DNA of 64,000 bases, from contig NZ_CP050975.2 in NCBI RefSeq assembly GCF_012273515.2, forward strand, positions 3,596,001 through 3,660,000, given 5' to 3'. The notes under the pieces are model-generated. The model saw only the letters and a program-made list of their open reading frames with translations, was not told the DNA's origin and ran no database searches. The DNA comes from Streptomyces sp. RPA4-2 (lineage in GTDB: Bacteria; Actinomycetota; Actinomycetes; Streptomycetales; Streptomycetaceae). Made by a program: the position numbers and the translations under genes. Shown in pieces: positions 20,573 through 38,989 of this stretch (within the stretch, counting starts at the first letter, position 1; every line of letters starts with the position of its first letter).

Positions 20573-20729
20573 GCCCGATCCACGACCGGGCACCCGCCAC
20601 CCGTGCCACCCCCATACCCCTCCCCCTCCCTCTCCTCATCCCCCCCGGATCGGGTATCGGCCGCCCGCGCTCACCCTCTGGCCAGCGGATCTCTCCATTT
20701 CGTAAGGCGACGGCAGTACGGTGTCACCC

Positions 20730-21749
20730 ATGCGCCCCGACACGCCTGCCGAGAACGTCGACCACACCGCCGAAGCCGCACGCCTGGAGCGGACCGCCGG
20801 CCTCTACCCCGAGGACGCCGAACACCTGCTCCTGCAGGCCGCGGCCCACCTCGAACTGGCCGGCGACCGCCCCGGCGCCAGCGCACTCTACGACCGCCTC
20901 CTGTCGTCCTCGACGCCCCTGGAGCGCCCCCACCTGGTCCGCGCCCTGAAGGCGTCGAACCTGTGGGAGTACGGCCACGAGGCGGAAGCGCGCGCGATCA
21001 TCGACGGAGTACGCGCCGCGTCCCCGCGCGACCCCGCGCCCTGGGTGATCGTGGCGGAGGCACTGGAGTCGCACGACGAGCTGGAGGCGGCGCAGGAGAC
21101 GTTCACGGAGGGCGCGACGCTGCTCCTGACGGACGTGACGGACCCCCCGTACGCCACCCGCCCCATCCTCTTCGGCCGCCACCGCGTCCGCCGCATGCTG
21201 GGCGTCGCCCACGACGACTGGGACGCCCTCGCCGACACCCTCCACTCGTCCCCCGTCTCCCTCGACGAACTCCACGACCCCAAGCGGGTGTGGTCACTCG
21301 GCTCGGAGAACCCCGCGGAGCTCCAGGCGGAGATCAGCCGCCTCCGCGCCGAACTGGGCGCCCACCGGGAGGCCCTCTCCCGCCCGTTCCCGGTCGCGGT
21401 CCTGCACTGGCCCGCCGACGAACTGGCGGAACTCCTGGCCGCGTATCCCTCCCTCGCCACGGAGTACCCGTCCCACGAGGAACACCTGGCGACGATAGAG
21501 GCGTCCCTGCGCGAACTGTCCGCCTCCGGCACCCCCAACCTGGGCATCGTCACCGGCACGGTCCCGTCCTACGAGGCCTTCTCCGCCTCGGAGGCGTCGT
21601 CCCCGTCCGACACGACGCTGCTCCCCCAGTACGCGACGACCCTGGCGGCCCGAGGCCGCGCAACGTCCTGGCCGCCTCAGCGGGGGGTTGTCTGCTGGTG
21701 CGGGTCGGGGCGGGGGTATGGGGAGTGTCACGGCACCCCGGGCGCTTGA
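20730..21749 (+). CDS. SEC-C zinc-finger protein with TPR-like helices
   Basis: 339 residues. The body is helical with TPR-like features (LYPEDAEHLLLQAAAHLELAGDRPGASALYDRLL). The C-terminus carries a SEC-C metal motif, CWCGSGRGYGECHG, in which the last Cys-Cys pair of the consensus is Cys-His. SEC-C motifs occur in SecA and many unrelated proteins. Function unknown. A GTG three codons upstream is an alternative start. Confidence 0.8.
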   Translation: MRPDTPAENVDHTAEAARLERTAGLYPEDAEHLLLQAAAHLELAGDRPGASALYDRLLSSSTPLERPHLVRALKASNLWEYGHEAEARAIIDGVRAASPRDPAPWVIVAEALESHDELEAAQETFTEGATLLLTDVTDPPYATRPILFGRHRVRRMLGVAHDDWDALADTLHSSPVSLDELHDPKRVWSLGSENPAELQAEISRLRAELGAHREALSRPFPVAVLHWPADELAELLAAYPSLATEYPSHEEHLATIEASLRELSASGTPNLGIVTGTVPSYEAFSASEASSPSDTTLLPQYATTLAARGRATSWPPQRGVVCWCGSGRGYGECHGTPGA

Positions 21750-21926: not shown

Positions 21927-23507
21927 ATGCCGCCCTACCAGCCGTCTTCGGACTGGCAGTTCGACGTACCCACCAGCGGAAGCAAGCGGCTCCCCCCGGC
22001 TGCCAGGTCGTTCGAATCGCTCACGCACCAGGGCTACGGCTTCGAGGCGGCCGTCGCCGACCTGATCGACAACTCGATCGACGCGGGAGCCCACAACGTC
22101 GTCGTGAGCTTCCTGCGCGACACAGGTGAACACGGCGGACGGGATCGCCTCGTGGGCCTGCTCGTCATCGACGACGGCCATGGCATGGACGAGGCGAGCC
22201 TGGACACGGCGATGACCGTCGGCGGGCGCGAGAAGTACGCAGCCGGGTCCCTCGGGCACTTCGGTGCCGGACTGAAGGCCGCCTCTCTGTCGCACGCCGA
22301 TGCGCTCACCGTGATCAGCCGGACCAAGCGCAGCCCGTCGGCCGGCCGTCGCTGGCTCACCACTCGCGCGCAGGCCGACTTCACCTGCGACATCGTCGAT
22401 GCGGCGTACTGCCAGAGCCTGGTCGACCGCTACGACGGGATCATCGACTGGCACGGCACGATCGTGCGCTGGGACGAGGTCCGCGCGTTCGAGACCATCA
22501 CCACGGGCCAGACCGACCGCTACCTCAATGACGCGATCGAACGGCTCGAGACCCACCTCGGTCTCTTCCTCCACCGCTTCCTCGCCCGCGACGGCTTCCA
22601 CATAGACATCGTCGTCGAGGACGTCCATACCCGGGAGGAACTCGACCACCGGAGCGTGGAGCACATCGACCCCTTCGGCTACCGGGTCCCGGGCCGCCCG
22701 GGCTATCCCCGTACGTACGTCGCGCCCGTCGAGGGCGCCGGCGACGTCGCTCTCACCGCGCACATATGGCCGCCCAAGTCCCCGCTGGTCGCCTACCGAG
22801 GCATCGGCCCGCTCGCCGAGCGCCAGGGCTTCTACCTCTACCGCAACGACCGGCTCGTCCAGGCCGGCGGCTGGAACGACACACGCAGCCCGGAGGGCCA
22901 CCTCGCCCTCGCCAGGATCGCCGTGGATCTGCCGCCCGAGCCCAACGACGTGTTCTCCCTGACCGTCAAGAAGGACGGTGTCCAGGTCACCCCCGCGTTC
23001 GCCCGGGGCCTGGAAAGGGCAGTAACCCCCACCACTGGCCACACCTTCACCGAATACATCCGTGAGGCCGAGACGACCTATCGCGAGGCCGCCAAGCGAC
23101 GCACCGAGGTCAAGCGCACGGCCGTCATCCCGCCCGGCAAAGGCATCGACCCGAAGCTGAAGCGGACGCTGCGGGACGAACTGCCCCAGCTGGAGGGCGA
23201 CGACCCCATCACCTTCACCTGGGCCAGGCTCGACGTGCCGCCCGGCGCCGACTCCGCCGAACTCCTCTTCACCATCGACCACAAGGAGCGCCTGGTCGTC
23301 CTCAACAAGGACTACCGGCACGTCTTCAACTGCGGCAGGCGCGGGGGCTCCAACGACGCCCCGGTCCTCAAGAGCCTGCTCTATCTGATGCTCAACGAGA
23401 TCTTCCAGAAGGAGCGGGTCTGGGCCAACCAGACCGACAAGGTCGCCCTGTGGAACAGCGTCCTCGTCACCGCGGTACGAGCCGAACTCGCCCGCACCGA
23501 CGGTTAG
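21927..23507 (+). CDS. GHKL ATPase, paraMORC/MutL-like
   Basis: 526 residues. The ATP-binding domain shows the N motif ADLIDNSIDAG (about residues 44-54), the Asp motif VIDDGHGMDE (about 78-87) and the G2 loop GSLGHFGAGLKAASLS (about 107-122), as in MutL, Hsp90 and MORC proteins. An S5-like domain with AYRGIGPLAERQGFYLYRNDRLV follows (about 285-320); the C-terminal part resembles nothing I recognise. Published analysis of MORC relatives predicts such ATPases act in restriction systems with helicases and nucleases by remodelling DNA. It opens the island, 54 bp before the Z1 gene, with a clear GAGGAA site. Confidence 0.85.
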   Translation: MPPYQPSSDWQFDVPTSGSKRLPPAARSFESLTHQGYGFEAAVADLIDNSIDAGAHNVVVSFLRDTGEHGGRDRLVGLLVIDDGHGMDEASLDTAMTVGGREKYAAGSLGHFGAGLKAASLSHADALTVISRTKRSPSAGRRWLTTRAQADFTCDIVDAAYCQSLVDRYDGIIDWHGTIVRWDEVRAFETITTGQTDRYLNDAIERLETHLGLFLHRFLARDGFHIDIVVEDVHTREELDHRSVEHIDPFGYRVPGRPGYPRTYVAPVEGAGDVALTAHIWPPKSPLVAYRGIGPLAERQGFYLYRNDRLVQAGGWNDTRSPEGHLALARIAVDLPPEPNDVFSLTVKKDGVQVTPAFARGLERAVTPTTGHTFTEYIREAETTYREAAKRRTEVKRTAVIPPGKGIDPKLKRTLRDELPQLEGDDPITFTWARLDVPPGADSAELLFTIDHKERLVVLNKDYRHVFNCGRRGGSNDAPVLKSLLYLMLNEIFQKERVWANQTDKVALWNSVLVTAVRAELARTDG

Positions 23508-26592: not shown

Positions 26593-27573
26593 ATGCTTCC
26601 TTTCGAAGAGGCCGACATCAGGGCCGCCGCGTCGGTGGCCCTGCAGCATGCGGCGGCCGGGGCGGACCCAGAACTCGACAAGGTCTACGAGCACATCAAG
26701 GCACTCGACCCTACGGGCTGCCGGTTCTCCAGGGTCCTTCGTGAGACCATCGACCAGCTGCTCAACGGCGAGGTGACCGGACGCTACGACTGGAAGACGC
26801 TCTTCAAGACCGAGAAGACTCACGCGGGAACGCTGGTAGAGATCAACTTGCAGCGTGAGTTCAAGTTCGCGGACGGCGACGCTATGGACTACCAGATCGC
26901 CGGCGTCGACGTGGACTGCAAGTACTCCCAGCAGTTCGGCGGCTGGATGATTCCACCGGAAGCGGTGGACCGCCTCTGCCTCCTGGCCTGGGCGAATGAC
27001 TACAAGTCCGTCTGGAGTATCGGCCTCGTCCGTATACGCAATGAGTGGCTGAACACCGGAAACAACCGTGATCTCAAGCTCACGATCAAGGCGGACCACC
27101 GGGACAAGATTCGGTGGTTGTGGCGCGACGAGGACCTCCCCGAGAACGTGCTCCTCCACATGGATGCTGCGGACCGTGAGGCGGTCTTCACATCGAACTC
27201 GGGCCAGCGCCGCTTGAACGAACTCTTCCGGCGCGTCCAGAAACGACGCATCGGCCGCAACGTGGTGCGCACGGTTGCCCAGCAGAAGGACTACATGAAG
27301 CGGGTCCGCGGCAACAGCGGCAGTCGGTCAGCACTGAGGGCAGAAGGCATCCTCATCATGGGTGACTCCGCCAGCCATCGAGTGATCGCCGGCCGACTCG
27401 GTCTCCCCCTCCCGGAGGAAGGCGAATTCGTCAGCGCCCGGGTGGTCACCGCAAGACCTCATCACGGGAAGGCCCTACAAGTCTCTCTAGGCGGGAACCC
27501 ATGGGTCCTGGCCCAGCCAGACGACCCGGTTGAGGCCGCCCCGGCCCTGCCTTCGCACACCGGACAGGACTGA
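26593..27573 (+). CDS. NaeI-family type II restriction endonuclease
   Basis: 326 residues. The nuclease domain carries Glu83 (TLVEINLQREF), Asp99 (GDAMDYQIAG) and Asp108-Cys-Lys110 (VDVDCKYSQ). As I recall NaeI, its catalytic residues E70, D86, D95 and K97 map to these with a constant offset of 13, and its Leu43 maps to Leu56 here. A C-terminal CAP-like DNA-binding domain follows (about 175-310). NaeI is a type IIE enzyme that cuts GCCGGC and needs a second copy of the site bound to its C-terminal domain. GAGGAG before the ATG; two bases separate it from the NgoMIV-like gene. Lower GC than the flanking chromosome. Confidence 0.92.
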   Translation: MLPFEEADIRAAASVALQHAAAGADPELDKVYEHIKALDPTGCRFSRVLRETIDQLLNGEVTGRYDWKTLFKTEKTHAGTLVEINLQREFKFADGDAMDYQIAGVDVDCKYSQQFGGWMIPPEAVDRLCLLAWANDYKSVWSIGLVRIRNEWLNTGNNRDLKLTIKADHRDKIRWLWRDEDLPENVLLHMDAADREAVFTSNSGQRRLNELFRRVQKRRIGRNVVRTVAQQKDYMKRVRGNSGSRSALRAEGILIMGDSASHRVIAGRLGLPLPEEGEFVSARVVTARPHHGKALQVSLGGNPWVLAQPDDPVEAAPALPSHTGQD

Positions 27574-27575
27574 CG

Positions 27576-28334
27576 ATGAACGCACCGTTCGCCACGGGCC
27601 TTCTCGGGTGGAAAAGGCTGGAGAAGACCGGGAATCTCGTCCCAAACAGCGCGGACTCCGACAGCAATACGTCAAAGCTGCTCGCGAGGCATGTTCTTGA
27701 GGCATTGGGGGTGGAGTCCGATGTCGTACTTCCCGGCACCCCCGACAGCCTTGGCCCCGCACTGGAACACGCCGTCTGCGATCACCTGGGAGCCGTGCTG
27801 CCTGACCTGTCTCCCGAACGGGTGTGGCACGTTGACCACAAGAAGACCGTGGCCGACTTCACGCAGTACGAGCACTTGGACAGAGTTGCCGAGGCCGTAC
27901 GCAAGAACGCCACCCTCCGTGTTGATCTGGGTCGCGATTACCTCATCAAGCCCGATGTCACCGTAGGGGTCACGCGTCCCACAGCGGAGGCCACGACCCG
28001 CCCGCGCCTGCATGCGGCAGTATCATGCAAGTGGACAATAAGGTCAGATCGCGTACAAAATGTGCGCCACGAATTCCTGCAGATGATCAGGCATCGACGT
28101 GGCCGGCTCCCCCATCTGGTGGTGGTGACCGCGGAGCCCATGCCCAGCCGCATCGCCTCAATCGCGCGGGGAACGGGAGAAGCCGACGCCATCTATCACA
28201 TCGCCTTCGACGCTCTGAAGGCCGCGGTAGCTGCCGTTGGCAGCCGCCAGCAAAGGGACGATCTCAGCGAGATCATCGAACAGGGCCGCCTTCTCCCCTA
28301 TGGAACACTGCCGCCAACTCTGTCCGGCTGGTAA
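27576..28334 (+). CDS. NgoMIV-family type II restriction endonuclease
   Basis: 252 residues. The active site follows the PD...SCK...E layout of this family: Asp127 (YLIKPDVTVG), Ser150-Cys-Lys152 (AAVSCKWTIR), Glu166 (VRHEFLQM, Lys-X13-Glu) and an upstream Glu64 (GPALEHAV). The recognition segment RSDR (156-159), which in NgoMIV contacts the CCGG core, is intact. NgoMIV is a tetrameric type IIF enzyme cutting GCCGGC. About 22 residues are missing between Asp127 and Lys152 compared with my memory of NgoMIV. It is translationally coupled to the NaeI-like gene. Outer base pair specificity needs testing. Confidence 0.92.
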   Translation: MNAPFATGLLGWKRLEKTGNLVPNSADSDSNTSKLLARHVLEALGVESDVVLPGTPDSLGPALEHAVCDHLGAVLPDLSPERVWHVDHKKTVADFTQYEHLDRVAEAVRKNATLRVDLGRDYLIKPDVTVGVTRPTAEATTRPRLHAAVSCKWTIRSDRVQNVRHEFLQMIRHRRGRLPHLVVVTAEPMPSRIASIARGTGEADAIYHIAFDALKAAVAAVGSRQQRDDLSEIIEQGRLLPYGTLPPTLSGW

Positions 28335-28344
28335 TTCACCTCAG

Positions 28345-28863
28345 ATGACTGCTCCCACCCCAGAACCAGATCCGTCACAGACCCCCTGGGTGCCGCCCGA
28401 GGGCTCATGGGCATCGTCCGCCGCACGCCGCCGCAACATGCAGGCGATCCGAAGCCGGGACACCACTCCGGAGCGCCTTGTCCGTCGGCTAGTACACGCT
28501 CAGGGCCTGCGGTACCGAGTAGCAACCCGCCCGCTCCCCGACCTTCGCCGCACCGCCGACATGGTCTTTCGGCCGGCGAAGGTGGCCGTCTTCATCGACG
28601 GCTGCTACTGGCACGGCTGCCCTGACCATTACGTCCCCCCGAAGACCAACCCTGGCTACTGGTCCGACAAAGTGGCCCGGAATATGGCCCGCGACCGCGA
28701 TACGGATGAGCGCCTACAGGCAGCTGGCTGGCTCGTCTTGCGCTTCTGGGAGCACGAATCAGCGGAAGAATGCAGCGAGATGATCTGTCACGCAGTGACA
28801 TCCAGACGTCACGCTTCGCCCGGCAGCACGCCGGACATCCCTACTGAGCAAGGGACATCTTGA
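28345..28863 (+). CDS. vsr: Very short patch repair endonuclease Vsr
   Basis: 172 residues. The family core reads NMQAIRSRDTTPERLVRR, LRRTADMVFRPAKVAVFIDG (catalytic Asp72) and CYWHGCPDHYVPPKTN, with the zinc-site Cys87, His90 and Cys92. It nicks 5' of T in T:G mismatches left by deamination of 5-methylcytosine, which fits the cytosine methyltransferase of this island. It starts 10 bp after the NgoMIV-like stop. Its 3' end overlaps the end of the convergent HTH-like gene by 23 bp. Confidence 0.93.
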   Translation: MTAPTPEPDPSQTPWVPPEGSWASSAARRRNMQAIRSRDTTPERLVRRLVHAQGLRYRVATRPLPDLRRTADMVFRPAKVAVFIDGCYWHGCPDHYVPPKTNPGYWSDKVARNMARDRDTDERLQAAGWLVLRFWEHESAEECSEMICHAVTSRRHASPGSTPDIPTEQGTS

Positions 28864-29530
28864 GCACTCGCCGGGCCATGGCGTTGTCCTCGATCTTCAT
28901 AAACTCATAGGCAATCTCCGCCAGTTGCCGCCCATCACGCCCGGTCTGCACATACCGGAGGATCACGTCGGCCTCGGAACGCAGCCCGCGCGCCCTGCAC
29001 GCGGCTACCGCATGAGCCACTTCTGCTGGGTCACCCGCCAAGCCGACATGCCGCAGGATGCCGGCGATATCCTCGGCCCTTCTGGTTTGTTTCATGTCCA
29101 GCAGGGCCACTGCCGTGGGCCAATGCCCTCGCCCGTGTTGCCGGTCCCCCTCTACTGAGGGGACCGGCAACACAAGCGCCTGGCAGCTCACGCACAGAGG
29201 CGCCGGCGGTTCACACGCCTTCCGCCATAGGCCCTCAACTTCGGCCCAGGCGACCGGCATAGAGGTCTCCTTCGCCCGCGCGACGGCTTCCGCCAGGTCG
29301 TAGAGCGCGCGGACCACCGCCCGCTTAGGCCTGCGTATACGTGCATTGAGCAGATCGGAGAGTGCACTCGCTGAAGCGTCACAGCCACAATTGCGCTTCT
29401 CCAGGGCCTCATGCGTCTGCCTCAGCGACAGTCCGACCACAGCCATCAGACCGCGCAAGGCCCCGGCGAGGGCCCTTCTCTCATCCGGAATTTCCGGATC
29501 CAGTTCCCTGAAGCGACCCGGTCGCGGCAC
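28841..29530 (-). CDS. Hypothetical helix-rich regulator-like protein
   Basis: 229 residues from a GTG with a perfect GAAGGAG five bases upstream; longer ATG extensions have no such site. The N-terminal half (about 20-90) looks like a divergent XRE-type helix-turn-helix (LRGLMAVVGLSLRQTHEAL, ALSDLLNARIRRPKR). The C-terminal half is helical and repeat-like (RRAEDIAGILRHVGLAGD, SEADVILRYVQTGRDG). Cys pairs (CVSC in the middle) may bind metal. It is on the strand opposite to the nucleases and could be the control protein of the island, but this is inference. Confidence 0.65.
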   Translation of the reverse strand: MPRPGRFRELDPEIPDERRALAGALRGLMAVVGLSLRQTHEALEKRNCGCDASASALSDLLNARIRRPKRAVVRALYDLAEAVARAKETSMPVAWAEVEGLWRKACEPPAPLCVSCQALVLPVPSVEGDRQHGRGHWPTAVALLDMKQTRRAEDIAGILRHVGLAGDPAEVAHAVAACRARGLRSEADVILRYVQTGRDGRQLAEIAYEFMKIEDNAMARRVLKMSLAQ

Positions 29531-29758
29531 GCCAGCTCCTTCTGTCCTCACCGCACGGAAGACAACAGTCTTTGACAACAGTGTCCCGCCACCCATCCCC
29601 AACAGGCGCCTCATCTATGTCCGGATACTCATCTGGACACTCCATCACTTCCGTTTCGGGCAGACATGGAGTTCTGTTGTGTCCAACGGGCCACCGTCAG
29701 GCATCAACCGTCCTGACATGCAGTCGGGCTGGCCCACTCAGGCTCTGCGAGGTGGCAG

Positions 29759-30436
29759 ATGAGCACGGCCTTGCCTTCATGGCAGGACAGCAAACTGGGC
29801 ACGATGAAGCGCGCTGCACTCTGGCTCGTCCAAGTGGTCGGTGAAGAGAACGTCTTTACCAAGGCGGAGCTCCGCGAAGCCTTTCCAGATGTGGCACAGA
29901 TCGACCGCCGCATGCGAGATCTCCGCGATTTCGGATGGAAGATCGACACCAAGCGCGAGGACATCGACCTCGACGCCAACGAACAGCGCTATGTGCAGCG
30001 CGGCGAGCCCGTCTGGGAGCCCGGCCGCGGGACCCGGCCCAAGAGCGCGATAACGGTGAACCAACGCCGCGAGCTGCTGGCCATCTACAACCACAAGTGC
30101 AGTTCGTGTGGTGCTACCCCCGGAGACGCCTACGCCGACTCGGAGGTCACAGCTCAGCTCGACGTGGCCAAGCGCGAAGTGCTGTTGCCGGACGGTACGA
30201 AGGCACTCCAGTACGTCGTCGAGTGCAACCGCTGCCGTGTCGGCGGCATCGGTGCCACGTACGACGTTTCGGCGTTGCTCTCCGAGGCCACGTCGCTGCC
30301 CTCATTCGAACTCGACATCCTGAAGACCTGGCTCAAGCGGGACGCCCGGGCGTTCAGCTCTGTCGAAGACATCTGGGCGAAGTACCGCGCACTGCCGGTT
30401 GAGGCACGCGAAGCCTTCCGTGACGGCCTGAACTAG
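29759..30436 (+). CDS. Winged-helix plus zinc-cluster protein, degenerate HNH-like
   Basis: 225 residues. The N-terminal 65 residues suggest a winged helix (VFTKAELREAFPDVAQIDRRMRDL). The middle has two Cys pairs, CSSCGATPG (about 118-126) and CNRCRVGG (about 158-165), arranged as in HNH nucleases, but the catalytic His pair is absent (QLDVAKRE where HNH would have a DH motif). So it may bind DNA or zinc without cutting. GAGGTGG precedes the ATG. It heads a run of three same-strand genes with the ParB-like and helicase genes. Confidence 0.6.
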   Translation: MSTALPSWQDSKLGTMKRAALWLVQVVGEENVFTKAELREAFPDVAQIDRRMRDLRDFGWKIDTKREDIDLDANEQRYVQRGEPVWEPGRGTRPKSAITVNQRRELLAIYNHKCSSCGATPGDAYADSEVTAQLDVAKREVLLPDGTKALQYVVECNRCRVGGIGATYDVSALLSEATSLPSFELDILKTWLKRDARAFSSVEDIWAKYRALPVEAREAFRDGLN

Positions 30437-30510
30437 GCCTCTTCGGGTCCCTTGCCGGCCTCGGGCCACCCATCAGTCCCCACAGCTCACTCCAGCTATG
30501 AGAGGTACCA

Positions 30511-31926
30511 ATGCCGACGGACTTCGGCGTCCCCCCGCTCGCGGATGAGAACCGCACCCTGGTCGAACAGCGGCTCCAGGACGCGCGCACCGGCGACGCA
30601 GTACCCGAAACACTCCGGGTGGAGTTCCGGGGCCGCCCTATCCACGTCGAAGTCATCGACATGCCGGTCGACCAGCTCTCCTACAACCCCGCAACGCACA
30701 GGATCAGTGCGCAACGTGCTTATGACCCGGTGCAGGAAGAGGAACTGACGAAAGATCCCTGGTCGGACGCAGGTCAGAGCTATCTGCATCACCTGCTGAC
30801 AGCAACGCCGTCTGACCCGCACCAGCGCGACCCGGACTTCGACAAGCTGCAGGAGAGCCTTCGCGAACACCGCCAGAACGAGCCGGGACTCATCTCCCGT
30901 GAAGGTGTTCTCGTCAACGGCAACACCCGCCGAGCCGCTCTGAAGGAACTGGGTGTCCAATCCATCCGCGTGGGTGTGCTGCCGGCCAGCTGTACCTGGG
31001 ACGATATCCGTTCAGTCGAACTATCCTTGCAGCTCAGGCCGGACCGACGGCGCGAGTACTCCTACATCAACCAACTGATGGCCATTGAGGAGCAGATCCG
31101 CCTCGGACTGCCCCTAGCCGCCATCGCCAAGCTGTTTCACACGTCAACGCCGGCACTGGACCGGGATACATGGGTTCTCGGGCAGTTGCGCGACCTGGTC
31201 AAGCGCAGCGAGCACGGCCGGATCAAACTGCGCCTCATGGACTTCGAGGACGCTAAGGAGAGCTTCGCCGAGCTGTACCGGACGTACATCAAGGAGAAAG
31301 CCAAAGATAAACAGAAGGCCGACACCCTTCTTGAATACCGGCTGGCAGCCATTGCCCTCGATTTCGCCAAGACCGACATCCGCAGCATCCGCACCGACTT
31401 CCGGGAAAAACACCTGGAACGCCGCTTGCCCGAAGGTCCCCACACCGCGGTCCCGGAGCCGCCGAAGGCCGTCTCCATCCCTGGCCTTAATCGTTCCCTA
31501 CCGGCACCAAGTTCCGAAACGGCCGTTGCCCGCGCCCTCACTGACATGCTCCTCAGGGCAAAAGCGACACAGAAGTCCGCGACCACAGCAACCGTTGAAG
31601 AGCTCACTGAAGCCAACCGTTCTGTGTCCGTACTGAAAGGCGCCTTCGAGGAGTCGATCCATTCCGCTCACAAGGCGATCCGCGACCGGAAGAAGCGGCT
31701 AGCGGCCCCCGACCGTGTCAATGCAGCAGTTGAGGAACTTCAGCAGTGCGCCACTGACCTGGTACTAGCGCGAGGCAACAACAGCCTGGACGAGGGTGCA
31801 TTCGACGACACGCTGGTCGCGCTCAGGCAGGCACTGACCAAGGTGTCAGCCGAGGCCTCAAAGAGCATCCAACTCCCGGGCGAGGGCCTGTCGTGGCTGC
31901 GTGAAGCCCTGGGAATCCAGCGATGA
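30511..31926 (+). CDS. ParB/sulfiredoxin-fold N-terminal domain protein
   Basis: 471 residues. The ParB-like signature is ISREGVLVNGNTRRAALKELG (shortened here; about residues 127-146), followed by a helical region with an HTH-like stretch (LPLAAIAKLFHTS). The C-terminal half is coiled and basic (RDRKKRLAAPDRVNAAVEEL). Some ParB-fold proteins are nucleases or NTPases in defence islands rather than chromosome-partition proteins, and no parA is nearby. ATGA overlap with the helicase gene shows coupling. Likely partner of that helicase. Confidence 0.75.
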   Translation: MPTDFGVPPLADENRTLVEQRLQDARTGDAVPETLRVEFRGRPIHVEVIDMPVDQLSYNPATHRISAQRAYDPVQEEELTKDPWSDAGQSYLHHLLTATPSDPHQRDPDFDKLQESLREHRQNEPGLISREGVLVNGNTRRAALKELGVQSIRVGVLPASCTWDDIRSVELSLQLRPDRRREYSYINQLMAIEEQIRLGLPLAAIAKLFHTSTPALDRDTWVLGQLRDLVKRSEHGRIKLRLMDFEDAKESFAELYRTYIKEKAKDKQKADTLLEYRLAAIALDFAKTDIRSIRTDFREKHLERRLPEGPHTAVPEPPKAVSIPGLNRSLPAPSSETAVARALTDMLLRAKATQKSATTATVEELTEANRSVSVLKGAFEESIHSAHKAIRDRKKRLAAPDRVNAAVEELQQCATDLVLARGNNSLDEGAFDDTLVALRQALTKVSAEASKSIQLPGEGLSWLREALGIQR

Positions 31927-33752
31927 CCCACTCTGGTCTTCCCTCTCTCCGCATCACCTTCAACGTCACGCGCACGCGTGCGGTACTCCGCGCGCGCCCA
32001 GGGCTGGAAGGAGACTTCGGAATGCTGGCCACGCGGGTGACTCCGGGTGGCCAACGGGGCCCACTGACGTCCGAGGCCGATCTGGACAGTTTCCTGTCCT
32101 CCATTGGTGAGCTGGCGGACTGGCCCCACGCGGATGTCGAGTGGGAACCTGAGCTGGCCAGTCTCGTCACGGGTGTTCTCGACGACTCCGAAACCGTGCA
32201 AGCCCGGCTCAGCTCACCGCCTGCCGACGGCCGGCAGGCGCCGCTCGCGCCAGAGGACGTCCCTACCCTGCTAGGCACAGGGTGGCAGGCAGACCTCACT
32301 TCATTCCAGCTCCGGGATACCGGGGAGCTGTTGTCCCTGGGCCACGGTGCGAACTTCAGTGTTCCAGGGGCCGGCAAGACTCGCACGGCACTGGCAGTGT
32401 TCAGCGCCCTCCGTGAGCGAGGCGAAGTCCGGCGTCTTCTCGTCGTCTGTCCCAAATCAGCATACGAATCCTGGCAATTCGAGGGGAACGCCTGCTTCAA
32501 GGAACCCCTGCCGACTTCCGTGATGGACAACGGATCCCTCGGCCCCGAAGCTGAAGTCGTCCTGGTCAACTACGAGAGGCTGTCCGGCTCCGTCAGCCGT
32601 CTTGCAGAGTGGCTGCGCACGACACCGGCGATGTTGGTGCTCGACGAAGCGCACCGCATGAAACTCGGAGCCCGCGGCGCATACGGTGCTGCCTGTCTGT
32701 CTCTTGGGCCGCTGGCTCGACGGCGTCTCATTCTCACCGGGACGCCAGCTCCCAACGGCGCCCGTGATTTGGAAAGCCTGCTCTCATTCGTATGGCCAGG
32801 ACGGGGCAAGCAGCTCGTCGTCGAAGCTGTCAGCGGTGGTGATCTCGCTTACGCGAGCCAGGCTCTGCGTCCGCTGTTCACTCGGACAACGAAGAAGGAG
32901 CTGGGCCTTCCTCCATTTGAACCCCTAGTCCGCTACGTCGAACTTCCCCCGCTGCACCGTGAGTTGTACGACGCACTCAAGGGGGACCCGTCCACTCGCC
33001 GAGGTGACCTGGCTTCTCTCGGCAAGGCAGCAATGCGCGTACTGATGGCTGCCATCAGCCCGGCTTTGCTGGCTCCGAGCGACAACCGGTACGGCCCGCT
33101 TGTCTTTCAGCTGCCAGCGCTTGACGTCTCGGATAGCGACTCATTGCATACGCTGCTCCAGCGGCTTCCTCAGCATGAGCTCTCACCCAAGTACGCGGAA
33201 ACCGTTCGAATCGTCGCAAGGAACGCGCGGGCCGGTCGCAAGACACTGGTCTGGACTGGGTTCATCCGAAGTCAGAAAACCCTAGAGGACCTACTGGCAC
33301 CGCATGCCCCGGCTTCCATTTACGGTGCCACCCCGAACCAGGACCGGGTAGCTGAGCTCAGCCGCTTCCGTGAGGACCCGTCATGCATGGTCCTGATCTC
33401 CAATCCCGCGACCCTTGGTGAAGGCATCAGCCTTCACCAGGTCTGTCATGACGCCGTATACGTGGACCGCGACTTCATGGCTGGCCGATTCCTCCAGAGC
33501 CTTGACCGCATTCACCGGCTGGGGCTGCCTCCAGGCACCGAGACACGCGTGACCGTCCTGGCGGCCCGGGGCACGATCGATGAAATCGTCGCCATGCGTC
33601 TCGAAAAGAAGCTGCATTTTCTGGGCAGCGTGCTCGACGACCCTGCGGTGCGCCAGCTCGGCGATCTCCAAGAGGAGGAGACCACGGGCCTGGGCATGGA
33701 CGCCGATGACATCCATGCCCTCCTCGCGCACTTGGACAGCCGGTTCCCATGA
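31923..33752 (+). CDS. SNF2-type DEAH helicase/translocase
   Basis: 609 residues. Motif I is NFSVPGAGKTRTALAVF (about 145-161), motif II LDEAHRMKLG (about 239-248), motif III ILTGTPAPNG (about 269-278), motif V-like LISNPATLGEGISLHQ and motif VI FLQSLDRIHRLGLP (about 520-533). The first 130 residues are unlike known domains and may contact the ParB-like protein. SNF2 enzymes translocate on duplex DNA and recur in multi-gene restriction systems. Convergent with the methyltransferase gene, 57 bp apart. Confidence 0.87.
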   Translation: MTHSGLPSLRITFNVTRTRAVLRARPGLEGDFGMLATRVTPGGQRGPLTSEADLDSFLSSIGELADWPHADVEWEPELASLVTGVLDDSETVQARLSSPPADGRQAPLAPEDVPTLLGTGWQADLTSFQLRDTGELLSLGHGANFSVPGAGKTRTALAVFSALRERGEVRRLLVVCPKSAYESWQFEGNACFKEPLPTSVMDNGSLGPEAEVVLVNYERLSGSVSRLAEWLRTTPAMLVLDEAHRMKLGARGAYGAACLSLGPLARRRLILTGTPAPNGARDLESLLSFVWPGRGKQLVVEAVSGGDLAYASQALRPLFTRTTKKELGLPPFEPLVRYVELPPLHRELYDALKGDPSTRRGDLASLGKAAMRVLMAAISPALLAPSDNRYGPLVFQLPALDVSDSDSLHTLLQRLPQHELSPKYAETVRIVARNARAGRKTLVWTGFIRSQKTLEDLLAPHAPASIYGATPNQDRVAELSRFREDPSCMVLISNPATLGEGISLHQVCHDAVYVDRDFMAGRFLQSLDRIHRLGLPPGTETRVTVLAARGTIDEIVAMRLEKKLHFLGSVLDDPAVRQLGDLQEEETTGLGMDADDIHALLAHLDSRFP

Positions 33753-33809
33753 AGGGTGGCTGACGTGTGAGGCCGCCCCGGCGCGCCCACTTTCCTCAGC
33801 CACCCTCAT

Positions 33810-34940
33810 TCACTGACTGGTACCACGCTTGCGGTCAGCCTTGAGTACCTCGATGATCGACTCACCGACAGCCTGCGCGACAGGCGGCGGAAACGCGTTC
33901 CCGACCTGCCGGTACTGGGCCGTCTTGCCTCCCGTGAATTCCCAATACGTCGGAAACCCCTGAATGATCGCGGCCTGGCGAACCGTGAGCATGGGGCCTT
34001 CGGTACCGAACAGATCGCGATTCTCAGTGCCGGTCTCCTCACCGTTCACTGGCGCGTTGGCCACGCCCATGCCCGAGACCCCCAGCACTCCCCATGCCTT
34101 CTTAGCCCGGCTGGGGCCAAGATCGGCGCCCCCGTGCTTCTTAGAACCGCCCACAAGCGTGGGAGCCACGCCCTTTTTTGCCGCATCCATCCATTTTTCG
34201 AACACCCGGTCCGCTTGAGCCTCCCGAGGCCCTCCCCTAAACGGCTTGATGCGCTCTTCCATCGTTTCCTCAAGCGCATCGAAGACGTTGACCCTCTCGG
34301 CACTGGGCGTGGGGGCTTCGTACTTCAGGTCCTTGAGCACGTCCTTCCGGAAGGCGACGAGGATGGAACGGGGCCGGAGCTGCGGAACCCCGAACTCCTC
34401 CGCCTTGTAGACCTCCCACCCCACAACCTCATAGCCGGACAGCCCGTCGCCATCGGGCTCCATGCCCTCAAGGCTGGCCTGGATCCGTGACCTGTAGTCG
34501 TCGAACTTGGCGTCCATGAGGCCACGGACGTTCTCGATCATCACGGCCCGGGGGCGGATGAGTTCGGCCAGCTCCAGGATGCGCGGGAAGAGATCACGCT
34601 CATCGTCCTCGCCAAGCTGCTTACCAGCGTGAGAGAAAGGCGGGCACGGAACGCCGCCGGCGAGCAGGTCAACCTCTCCCCGCCGATAAAGGCCAGCACT
34701 CTTCTTCAGGTCACGCCCGGGGTCGAACTCAAGTACGTCTTTGCAGAGAACATCGCAGTTGCCGCGCTCCCATTCCCACTTCGGGTGCACCTCGATGTTT
34801 TCACGCAGGGTCGCCGCCGCATACTTGTCGATCTCGACGAGGGCAAGATGCCTGAAACCGGCCAAGTGCAGTCCGATCGCCTGTCCGCCAGCGCCAGCAC
34901 AGATCTCGATCGACGTGTAGCCCCGGTCAGTCTCGGTCAT
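33810..34940 (-). CDS. DNA (cytosine-5-)-methyltransferase
   Basis: 376 residues. Motif I EICAGAGGQAIGLHLAG (12-28), catalytic motif IV GGVPCPPFSHAG with Cys99, motif VI VMIENVRGL, motif VIII PQLRPRSILV, a target-recognition region (about 200-310), motif IX TVRQAAIIQGFP and motif X QVGNAFPPPVAQAVG are all present and in order. As the only methyltransferase beside two GCCGGC-type nucleases it should protect that site, giving 5-methylcytosine; this is predicted, not shown. GGAGAGG precedes the ATG. Transcribed away from the nucleases, so it can be expressed on its own first. Confidence 0.93.
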   Translation of the reverse strand: MTETDRGYTSIEICAGAGGQAIGLHLAGFRHLALVEIDKYAAATLRENIEVHPKWEWERGNCDVLCKDVLEFDPGRDLKKSAGLYRRGEVDLLAGGVPCPPFSHAGKQLGEDDERDLFPRILELAELIRPRAVMIENVRGLMDAKFDDYRSRIQASLEGMEPDGDGLSGYEVVGWEVYKAEEFGVPQLRPRSILVAFRKDVLKDLKYEAPTPSAERVNVFDALEETMEERIKPFRGGPREAQADRVFEKWMDAAKKGVAPTLVGGSKKHGGADLGPSRAKKAWGVLGVSGMGVANAPVNGEETGTENRDLFGTEGPMLTVRQAAIIQGFPTYWEFTGGKTAQYRQVGNAFPPPVAQAVGESIIEVLKADRKRGTSQ

Positions 34941-36482: not shown

Positions 36483-36924
36483 ATGTCCGAACGGACCACA
36501 ACCCGCCGCCGTCAACTCGGCGCGTTGATGCGCAAGTTGCGCGCCCGCAAAGGGCTGACCCTTGAGGAAGCCGGGCAGCTCGTCGGCGTTTCCAAGGCAA
36601 CGGTGAGCCGGTACGAGACCCAGGCGGGGCCGGTCAAGTGGCTCGTCATTGACGCGTTGTGCCGCGAGTACGCGACAACTGACGCCGAGCGCAGAGCCGT
36701 TGTCGCGATCGCCAAGAACGCCAGGCAGCAGGGCTGGTGGAGTTCCTTTGCCGACTCGATTCCGGAGAGCATGAACCTTCTGCTCACGCTTGAGGACGAG
36801 GCCGTACGGGAGGATCACTTCTCCTGTGTCTACGTGCCAGGGCTCTTGCAGACCCGCGGTTACAGCACCGCTCTCCAGCAAGCCAACGAAGTGCGGCTGG
36901 AGCCGGCGGAGATCGAACGGCTAG
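36483..36924 (+). pseudogene. XRE-DUF5753 regulator, 5' part, cut by IS
   Basis: The first 147 codons encode the helix-turn-helix (MRKLRARKGLTLEEAGQLVG, KATVSRYETQ) and the start of the DUF5753 domain (FSCVYVPGLLQTRGYSTALQ). The frame is broken after EIERL by an inserted IS. Joining to the second part across one copy of CTAG restores a 281-residue protein of normal length. The present frame continues 62 bp into the element before a stop. Confidence 0.93.
36921..36924. repeat. Left copy of the IS target duplication
   Basis: CTAG precedes the left end of the element, and the same four bases follow its right end at 38582-38585. Confidence 0.85.
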
Positions 36925-38581
36925 CCTCGATCTTTCTTGAGGGTCCGCCGACGGAGTCGGCGGACCCTTTTGCTTTCCGGAGCTGATGCCGGGCAGGCCG
37001 GTGGCCCGGCTGTCGCGTCGGGTGGGCGCCGGGTTCCACTGCCCGGGCGGGTGATGCTGCCGCAGGGACGATGGGTTGCCAGTCAGCCGGGGTCAGGCAG
37101 GAGCGCGAGCCGTTCAAGGGCGGCGGTGATCTCGCCGGTCCAGGGCCAGTGCCGGGCGAGGCGGAGAATCCTGCGCCGACCGGTGGTGACGAGCTGGCCG
37201 GCTGCGGAGAACAGGCGGAACCGCAATCGACGCGGTTCCCAGAGCCTCGCCCGGCCGGTCAGCGCGAGCATGGGCATCCAGGCCAGCAGGTCGAGCGCGA
37301 TCTGGACGATCTCCATCCAGACCCGGTTCTGGGCGGTGTCGTGCAGGGGCAGGTTGCGCAGGCCGGTGGCCCGGGCGGCCCGGATCCGGTCCTCGGCCCG
37401 TGCCCGGAGCCGGTGACGCAGCTCGAGCTCGGCGATCGGCCGGCCGGTGGTGTTGGTCGCGAAGCACGTGATCCGCATGCCGTCCGCGTCCGTGATCCTC
37501 AACTGGGCGCCGGGATGGGGCCGTTCCTTGCGGACGATGAGCCGCATGCCCTTGGGCCAGTCGTCCAGGAGCTTGCCGGTGAGCTCGGCGACCCAGGCCC
37601 CGTCCCGGGCCTCACCGTCGGCCTCGACGGCCGGGGTCCAGGCCGAGGCGGGGACCTTCAGCACGTGTTCGTGGATCGCTTCGGTGACCGTCATGCCGAC
37701 CGAGTAGGACAGCCATCGGCCCCGCTTCGCGAGCCAGGACACGAAGTCGTGGGTGCCGCTTACGGAGTCCGTGCGGATCAGCGTCTGCCGTCCTCGCCGG
37801 TAGTGCTTGGGCAGTTGGGCCAGGGCGAGTTGGGCGGTGGTGATGTGGTCGGCGGCGGTGTTGGAGCCCGCGTTTCCCGGTCGGAGGAGGGCGGCGACGG
37901 GTTCACCGGTTCCGCCCGGTCCGTGGTCGACGAAAGCCGTCAGCGGGTGATGGCCGTAGGTCTTCTTCCAGGTCGCGGCCGCGTCCTGCTTGTCGGAGTG
38001 GGCGATCACGAGGACGCCATCGAGGTCGACAGTGACCTGGCCGTCGGCGTCCGGGGCGTTCTCGCCGGCCAACGACCAGGCACGATGACGGACTTCGGAG
38101 CGTGCGGACCGGACGGCCTGCAGGGCTTTGTCGCCGGATGCGGCGAGGGTGTCGATCAGGCGGGAGACGGTCGGGTCCGAGGCGACCGGGCCGAAGACGG
38201 CCGGCTCACACCGCAGCATGGAGACGTCCGCGAGGCAGTCCCCGCCCAGTGCGACCGCCAGGGCGACGTCCAGGAGGATCTTGCCGGGATCGTGGACGGC
38301 CCGCGGTTTGCGCCACGGAGCCAGAGCTGCGGATATCGCCTGGTCAAGGCCCGTCTTGCGGACCGTCTCCAGCAGCAGGACCGCACCGGCCTGCGAGAGC
38401 ACCTGCCGACCGTCTGCCTGGACACGGACACGTGGGTACGACGAGATAGGCTCTCTCACCTGGAAAGTGCTCTTTTCCTTGCAGCCAACAGGACCCTCAG
38501 CAAGTCCCATCGTTGCAGGTCAAGGGCACTTTCCGTGTTTCTGATCAACTCTTGGACAGCCCACCTCGTGAAAGCCCGAGG
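36925..38581. mobile_element. IS1380-family insertion sequence
   Basis: A complete 1657-bp element. The left end reads CCTCGATCTTTCTTGAGGG; the right end, read inward, CCTCGGGCTTTCACGAGG, giving imperfect terminal inverted repeats starting CCTCG. A CTAG duplication flanks it, within the 4-5 bp usual for IS1380. It carries one intact transposase gene on the minus strand. The intact gene it interrupts is recovered exactly by removing it, so the insertion is recent and the ends are certain. Confidence 0.93.
37083..38510 (-). CDS. IS1380-family transposase
   Basis: 475 residues, full length, DDE type. Visible segments are VTVDLDGVLVIAHSDK (first Asp), LIRTDSVSGTHDFVSWL (second acidic site) and the C-terminal LPLHDTAQNRVWMEIVQIAL DDE-region with Glu, typical of this family. 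The reading frame is open, so the element may still be active. Start may lie a few codons downstream at an internal GTG. Confidence 0.9.
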   Translation of the reverse strand: MGLAEGPVGCKEKSTFQVREPISSYPRVRVQADGRQVLSQAGAVLLLETVRKTGLDQAISAALAPWRKPRAVHDPGKILLDVALAVALGGDCLADVSMLRCEPAVFGPVASDPTVSRLIDTLAASGDKALQAVRSARSEVRHRAWSLAGENAPDADGQVTVDLDGVLVIAHSDKQDAAATWKKTYGHHPLTAFVDHGPGGTGEPVAALLRPGNAGSNTAADHITTAQLALAQLPKHYRRGRQTLIRTDSVSGTHDFVSWLAKRGRWLSYSVGMTVTEAIHEHVLKVPASAWTPAVEADGEARDGAWVAELTGKLLDDWPKGMRLIVRKERPHPGAQLRITDADGMRITCFATNTTGRPIAELELRHRLRARAEDRIRAARATGLRNLPLHDTAQNRVWMEIVQIALDLLAWMPMLALTGRARLWEPRRLRFRLFSAAGQLVTTGRRRILRLARHWPWTGEITAALERLALLPDPG

Positions 38582-38585
38582 CTAG

Positions 38586-38989
38586 TGGACATCCGCATGA
38601 AGCGGCAGGAGATCCTGACTCGCCCGGCTCCCCCACACCTATGGGCCATCCTCGACGAGTCCGTGATCCACCGGGTCGTCGGCTCACCAGAGATCATGGC
38701 GAGCCAGCTGGACCGCCTGCTCGAAGCGAACGATTCCCCTCACATCACTTTGCAGGTGCTGCCGTTCTCGAAGGGTGCTCACTCCGCGGCTCTCGGGAGC
38801 TTCGTGATCCTCGGCGGCACGGAGGCCGCCCTTGATGTCGTGTACGTCGACTTCCACACGGGGTCGCTCTTCCTGGAGAAGGAGGAAGAACTGGAGCGAT
38901 ACCGGCTTGCCTTCGAGTATCTCCGCGCACAAGCGTTGGACATGGAGGCTTCCTCGTCTCTGATCCACCGCATGCGCAAGGAGCTATGA
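38586..38989 (+). pseudogene. XRE-DUF5753 regulator, 3' part
   Basis: The remaining 134 codons start VDIRMKRQEILTRPAPPHL and hold the rest of DUF5753 (WAILDESVIHRVVGSPEIM, LQVLPFSKGAH). An open frame starting inside the IS at 38513 fuses about 24 IS-coded residues to it, so a truncated 158-residue product is possible but would lack the DNA-binding domain. Its stop touches the DUF397 start. Confidence 0.92.

Follow-up and report, generated by a model that had tools for sequence, protein, structure and literature searches.

Type II restriction-modification (R-M) systems are usually taught as one nuclease per methyltransferase. In a stretch of 64,000 nucleotides from Streptomyces sp. RPA4-2 (contig NZ_CP050975.2, positions 3,596,001 to 3,660,000; the whole of it is called the window below), one island encodes two restriction endonucleases (REases), one of the NaeI and one of the NgoMIV family, together with a single cytosine-5 DNA methyltransferase (Table 1). 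Why should a host pay for two cutters, and how could one methyltransferase protect it from both? The reading that we favor, with a probability of roughly three in four, is that two unrelated REases share one word, GCCGGC, and one protecting methyltransferase: a single methylation mark would serve two independent nucleases, and one enzyme would shield host DNA from both. A recurrent design of this kind offers a clean natural test of what is gained by doubling: the host might withstand inhibitors made by phages, the two enzymes might differ in the number of sites that they need, or the breaks might be harder to mend.

Two complete and unrelated nucleases

The first REase matches PF09126 with 406 bits (cut-off 25) over positions 2-287 of 288, that is, over the full length of the profile. 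Residues E70, D86, D95 and K97 (numbering of 1ev7), which we take to be catalytic, are kept in the alignment of the window and 24 other full pairs (25/25). Residue 43 is a leucine in the window; the L43K change at this position is presumably linked to topoisomerase activity. As a member of the NaeI family, the enzyme would be expected to cut GCC^GGC with effector stimulation (Type IIE). The prototype is described as a Type IIE enzyme with two DNA-binding domains, which engage two copies of the site and cut one of them (PMC1189080), and which loops DNA (PMC4081073). Five low-scoring relatives (L061 and L122-L125 in our numbering of loci; scores 231-256) match the profile in part and form a deep branch, and their C-terminal part may differ.

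The second REase scores above the gathering score of PF09015 and, modeled as a single chain, has the NgoMIV fold. Its PD...K...E site and R-(D/E)R motif are intact (D140, S185, K187, E201, R191, D193 and R194, numbering of 1fiu), and D34, E70, S192 and R227 are also kept. According to PMC4652773 and PMC6344858, R-(D/E)R makes the CCGG contacts, D34 and R227 are the outer-pair determinants of NgoMIV, and Q63 makes a minor-groove contact.

The sequence-only reading had described two unrelated REases side by side and coupled, with intact active sites. Families and folds (PF09126 versus PF09015) confirm the former, and the residue alignment the latter. Across three paired islands, that of the window and those of S. 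spiralis (L128) and Streptomyces sp. F001 (L129), the ratio of non-synonymous to synonymous substitution rates (dN/dS) is 0.07-0.13 for NgoMIV and 0.16-0.18 for NaeI, similar to the other island genes (0.10-0.27). With the checked catalytic residues intact and dN/dS low in both REases, it is very improbable that one of them is catalytically silent, or a regulatory or assembly partner.

One methyltransferase core for either nuclease

Our survey covered 122 methyltransferases, each the top-scoring one of a locus that contains at least one of NaeI and NgoMIV; two loci (L054/L177 and L066/L168) are each counted twice in this tally. The core pattern GGSx[KR]HGGxD[LV]GPxR is found at 16 paired, 33 NgoMIV-only and 33 NaeI-only loci. 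The authentic NgoMIV of Neisseria gonorrhoeae (L208) has a translation that matches stretches of 1fiu by eye. The methyltransferase beside it carries APTLVGGSKKHGGADLGPTR, and that of the window APTLVGGSKKHGGADLGPSR; the core APTLVGGSKKHGGADLGP is identical between the two. One recognition core thus serves either nuclease or both. Since this core accompanies each REase on its own as well as the pair, GCCGGC is likely to be the common word, and we strongly infer that it is the common target of the two families. The earlier proposal that one Dcm-type enzyme would have to protect against both cutters stands as regards the single methyltransferase and its core, common to NaeI-only and NgoMIV-only loci; the shared target itself is deduced from homology.

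Two further methyltransferase classes hold 8 pairs and 1 pair. The former is also found at 1 NaeI-only and 21 NgoMIV-only loci, the latter at 4 NaeI-only and 2 NgoMIV-only loci (these 2 being one locus seen twice), and 3 of the 122 methyltransferases fall outside every class.

Could the two REases instead read different words, for instance GCCGGC and another xCCGGx, with a less specific methyltransferase covering both? The evidence for this comes from five divergent pairs (L059-L063), in which R227, the outer-base-pair residue, is replaced as aligned, together with E70 and E201, while an aspartate occupies the N197 position. The second acidic residue of BsaWI likewise overlays N197 (PMC4652773), and these BsaWI-reminiscent forms may have an altered (outer-base) specificity. 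In another pair (L181), a lysine is aligned at D34. The window, however, keeps both D34 and R227, and its methyltransferase core is that found beside authentic NgoMIV, which makes different words improbable there.

Recurrence and loss of the pair

Among 297 Streptomycetaceae genomes, NaeI is present in 65 and NgoMIV in 15. Both occur in 13, versus 3.3 expected (p 7e-8): NaeI is found in 13 of the 15 NgoMIV genomes versus 52 of the 282 others, and in 11 of the 13 the two genes lie within about 1.3 kb. In a wider search, 568 of 592 NgoMIV candidates were confirmed, and we took the best 80 loci of named genomes, a sample biased to near relatives. NaeI is present in the fetched stretch of 16 of these best 80, in six actinobacterial families (L177 repeats L054). 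Paired genera are Streptomyces, Nocardiopsis, Geodermatophilus, Klenkia, Micromonospora, Phytomonospora, Catellatospora, Kibdelosporangium and Jiangella, and the arrangements vary: tandem, opposed, with the methyltransferase alone between the two genes, or with the methyltransferase and Vsr between them. We did not find the NaeI-NgoMIV pair in the open-licence literature; REBASE was not searched.

Quick trees of 84 NaeI rows and 89 NgoMIV rows require at least 14 and 9 changes of the paired state, of which starred branches force 9 and 5, respectively. On the NgoMIV tree, the nine tandem pairs of Streptomyces cluster together (Shimodaira-Hasegawa-like approximate likelihood ratio test, SH-aLRT, 97), and the five divergent pairs form a group of their own (5/5, SH-aLRT 100) with no solo member. 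NaeI and NgoMIV distances are correlated over the 25 pairs (r 0.75, p 0.0001). After near-copies are collapsed, the correlation is 0.39 (p 0.017) in the divergent five and 0.74 (p 0.007) in the other ten.

Several observations weigh against the favored reading. In the tandem clade, the same collapse lowers the correlation to 0.52 (p 0.019, 7 rows). Q63 of NgoMIV is an aspartate in the window. Most loci showed no partner in the fetched stretch (60 of 71 for NaeI, 64 of the best 80 for NgoMIV), some of these stretches stopping at contig ends; among the double-positive genomes, G117 has the two genes far apart on one contig and G119 on two contigs. For two pairs (L160 and L169), no methyltransferase was recognised within the 20.7 kb retrieved. 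GCCGGC is not rarer in the host, with an observed/expected ratio of 0.80 versus 0.89 and 0.80 in two genomes that match neither REase family. Finally, the second gene can be lost. Outside positions 27579-28308, the island of genome G243 (L070) is collinear with that of the window and about 84-86% identical in DNA. Within them, NgoMIV is reduced to a short remnant, in which the region of the catalytic motif and the final codons can still be recognized; NgoMIV was therefore formerly present and has been lost in that line, so that the second enzyme is dispensable. NgoMIV is also frameshifted in L054/L177 (one assembly seen twice, with identical pieces), possibly by sequencing error. Together with the loss in L070, this indicates that the pair is not obligatory. 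The islands of the window and of L070, with NgoMIV or with its remnant on an otherwise collinear background, provide matched natural variants.

A rival reading is replacement in progress, in which a GCCGGC methyltransferase-Vsr chassis would accept either REase, and the pairs would be transient states with one REase displacing the other. NaeI alone and NgoMIV alone are indeed both seen on the same type of chassis, and the frequent changes of paired state, the G243 remnant and the L054/L177 frameshift fit this scenario. In contrast, the tandem Streptomyces pairs have persisted while their proteins diverged by as much as 34% (NaeI) and 44% (NgoMIV), both REase genes are under strong purifying selection, the divergent clade is paired in all its rows, and the NaeI active-site residues are intact in every full pair. 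We consider replacement possible, if unlikely. The relatives suggest that the doubled design is recurrent and that both nucleases are maintained in working order.

A short form of NgoMIV in all full pairs

The segment between D140 and S185 has 22 residues in the window versus 44 in NgoMIV. Over 95 NgoMIV loci, this spacing is short (16-25) in 67 and long (41-48) in 26, the remaining 2 being the broken copy. NgoMIV is short in all 25 full pairs, and none of the 26 long forms has NaeI nearby. Such a pattern could reflect a division of labor by site number or topology, in which NaeI needs an effector site or a loop, and the short NgoMIV, with about 20 residues fewer, would be a single-site dimer. 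A short D-to-K spacing is found in PfoI, a dimer in the crystal (PMC6344858), and in BsaWI, which shows a dimer-tetramer equilibrium (PMC4652773); enzymes of the CCGG family range from dimer to tetramer and need one to three sites (PMC4652773, Table 1), the NgoMIV prototype being a tetramer that cuts two sites. However, BsaWI, despite its short spacing, still acts as a tetramer on two sites (PMC4652773), and no role for the missing segment was found in the literature searched. The short form is also a clade trait that 42 loci lacking a NaeI partner share, and kinship alone may therefore explain its link with pairing. Moreover, with some 1,660 GCCGGC per Mb in the host's own genome, targets with just one site should be rare, unless it is avoided by phages. 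We regard a strict division of labor as unlikely and favor robustness through two chemistries over it, replacement in progress being the main rival.

The sequence-only reading had also classed the prototypes as Type IIE and Type IIF. This holds for prototype NaeI, and prototype NgoMIV is a two-site tetramer; given the short form, and CCGG relatives whose needs vary from one site to two or three, the enzyme of the window can be called Type IIF only provisionally. The reasons that this reading proposed for the redundancy, defeat of phages that inhibit one nuclease or a difference in substrates, are candidate explanations.

Comparison with known systems

The NaeI R-M system comes from Lechevalieria aerocolonigenes. 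Its REase, by which alone the prototype was compared, is homologous to that of the window over the full length, including the C-terminal domain, with active-site residues kept; unlike it, the window adds a second, unrelated REase and accessory ATPase modules. The window differs from the NgoMIV system of N. gonorrhoeae by the short D140-S185 segment, the replaced Q63 and the added NaeI; neither NaeI nor Vsr was matched in the 6.7 kb around the gonococcal NgoMIV. The record of the latter (NZ_CP119142.1, 2.17 Mb) is listed as a plasmid, yet is chromosome-sized.

BsuMI is a multi-subunit system with more than one R gene, coding for subunits of one activity. BbvCI (PMC6326814), a heteromeric two-gene REase, likewise has more than one R gene, again for subunits of one activity. 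The R genes of the window, unlike those of both systems, encode two complete, unrelated enzymes. MORC/paraMORC R-M operons (Iyer, Abhiman and Aravind 2008, PMC2292703) have in common with the island a set of GHKL ATPase, superfamily II helicase, cytosine methylase, Vsr and restriction endonucleases. Dual REases are a feature of the window that was not met in the available part of that paper, whose main text names NaeI and NgoM 0 times. As for the MZA system (NCBIfam NF041932/NF041933, PADLOC), the window scores far under the equivalog cut-offs, with 119.9 of 850 bits for MzaB (the GHKL/MORC-like ATPase) and 256.1 of 1500 bits for MzaC (the following open reading frame, ORF), and MzaA, MzaD and MzaE gave no match for the ten island proteins among the matches listed (25 of 58 families for the methyltransferase).

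Organization of the island

Table 1. Genes of the two-nuclease island (positions in the window)
Gene product	Position	Strand	Support
GHKL/MORC-like ATPase (MzaB-like), accessory module 1	21927..23507	+	PF13589 1e-21
ORF with PF10593	23450..26545	+	profile match, 6e-52
NaeI-family restriction endonuclease (R1)	26593..27573	+	PF09126 1e-121; 1ev7 295 bits
NgoMIV-family restriction endonuclease, short form (R2)	27576..28334	+	
Vsr-type mismatch endonuclease	28345..28863	+	PF03852 2e-19; TIGR00632 131.7 bits (cut-off 97.85, passed)
Helix-turn-helix (HTH, XRE-like) protein, probable regulator, divergent from SNF2 module	28841..29614	-	HTH_31 E=0.0015, below cut-off
Winged-helix/zinc-ribbon protein, probably HNH-derived, accessory module 2	29759..30436	+	conserved CxxC...CxxC
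ParB/Srx-like protein, accessory module 2	30511..31926	+	GNTRRAAL motif
SNF2-family helicase, accessory module 2	31923..33752	+	PF00176 1e-17
Cytosine-5 DNA methyltransferase, target recognition domain (TRD) core VAPTLVGGSKKHGGADLGPSR	33810..34940	-	PF00145 1e-52, 179.8 bits (cut-off 22, passed)

The Vsr ORF is open from a TTG at 28237, and its ATG comes after the NgoMIV stop. Window positions 29759-33752 hold a recurrent three-gene module (zinc-ribbon, ParB-like and SNF2), mostly accompanied by the divergent HTH gene, which is found repeatedly beside the SNF2 module in relatives. The zinc-ribbon protein has kept the catalytic HNH histidine, with a PF01844 match, in one relative (L067) and has not kept this histidine in 4 other aligned relatives. 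The ParB-like protein has no Pfam family match at E 1, and we take its motif to be indicative of a ParB/Srx-like protein; it is present in 41 of the 297 Streptomycetaceae genomes, and ParB-like and SNF2 genes are both present in 18 of 71 NaeI loci.

The pairs L160 and L169 are from Geodermatophilaceae and show no recognised DCM or Vsr in their 20.7 kb; the neighbors in L160 are a GmrSD_N protein, a PD-(D/E)XK protein and a large DEAD helicase. Near the right end of the island, a DDE_Tnp_1_4 transposase gene (37083-38510, minus strand) splits an HTH/DUF5753 regulator (36483-38989) whose parts, unlike in the window, are contiguous in L128 and L129. On the other side, a SEC-C motif protein (20721-21749) is collinear with the island in three relatives, and may be either an island gene or a neighbor of the insertion site.
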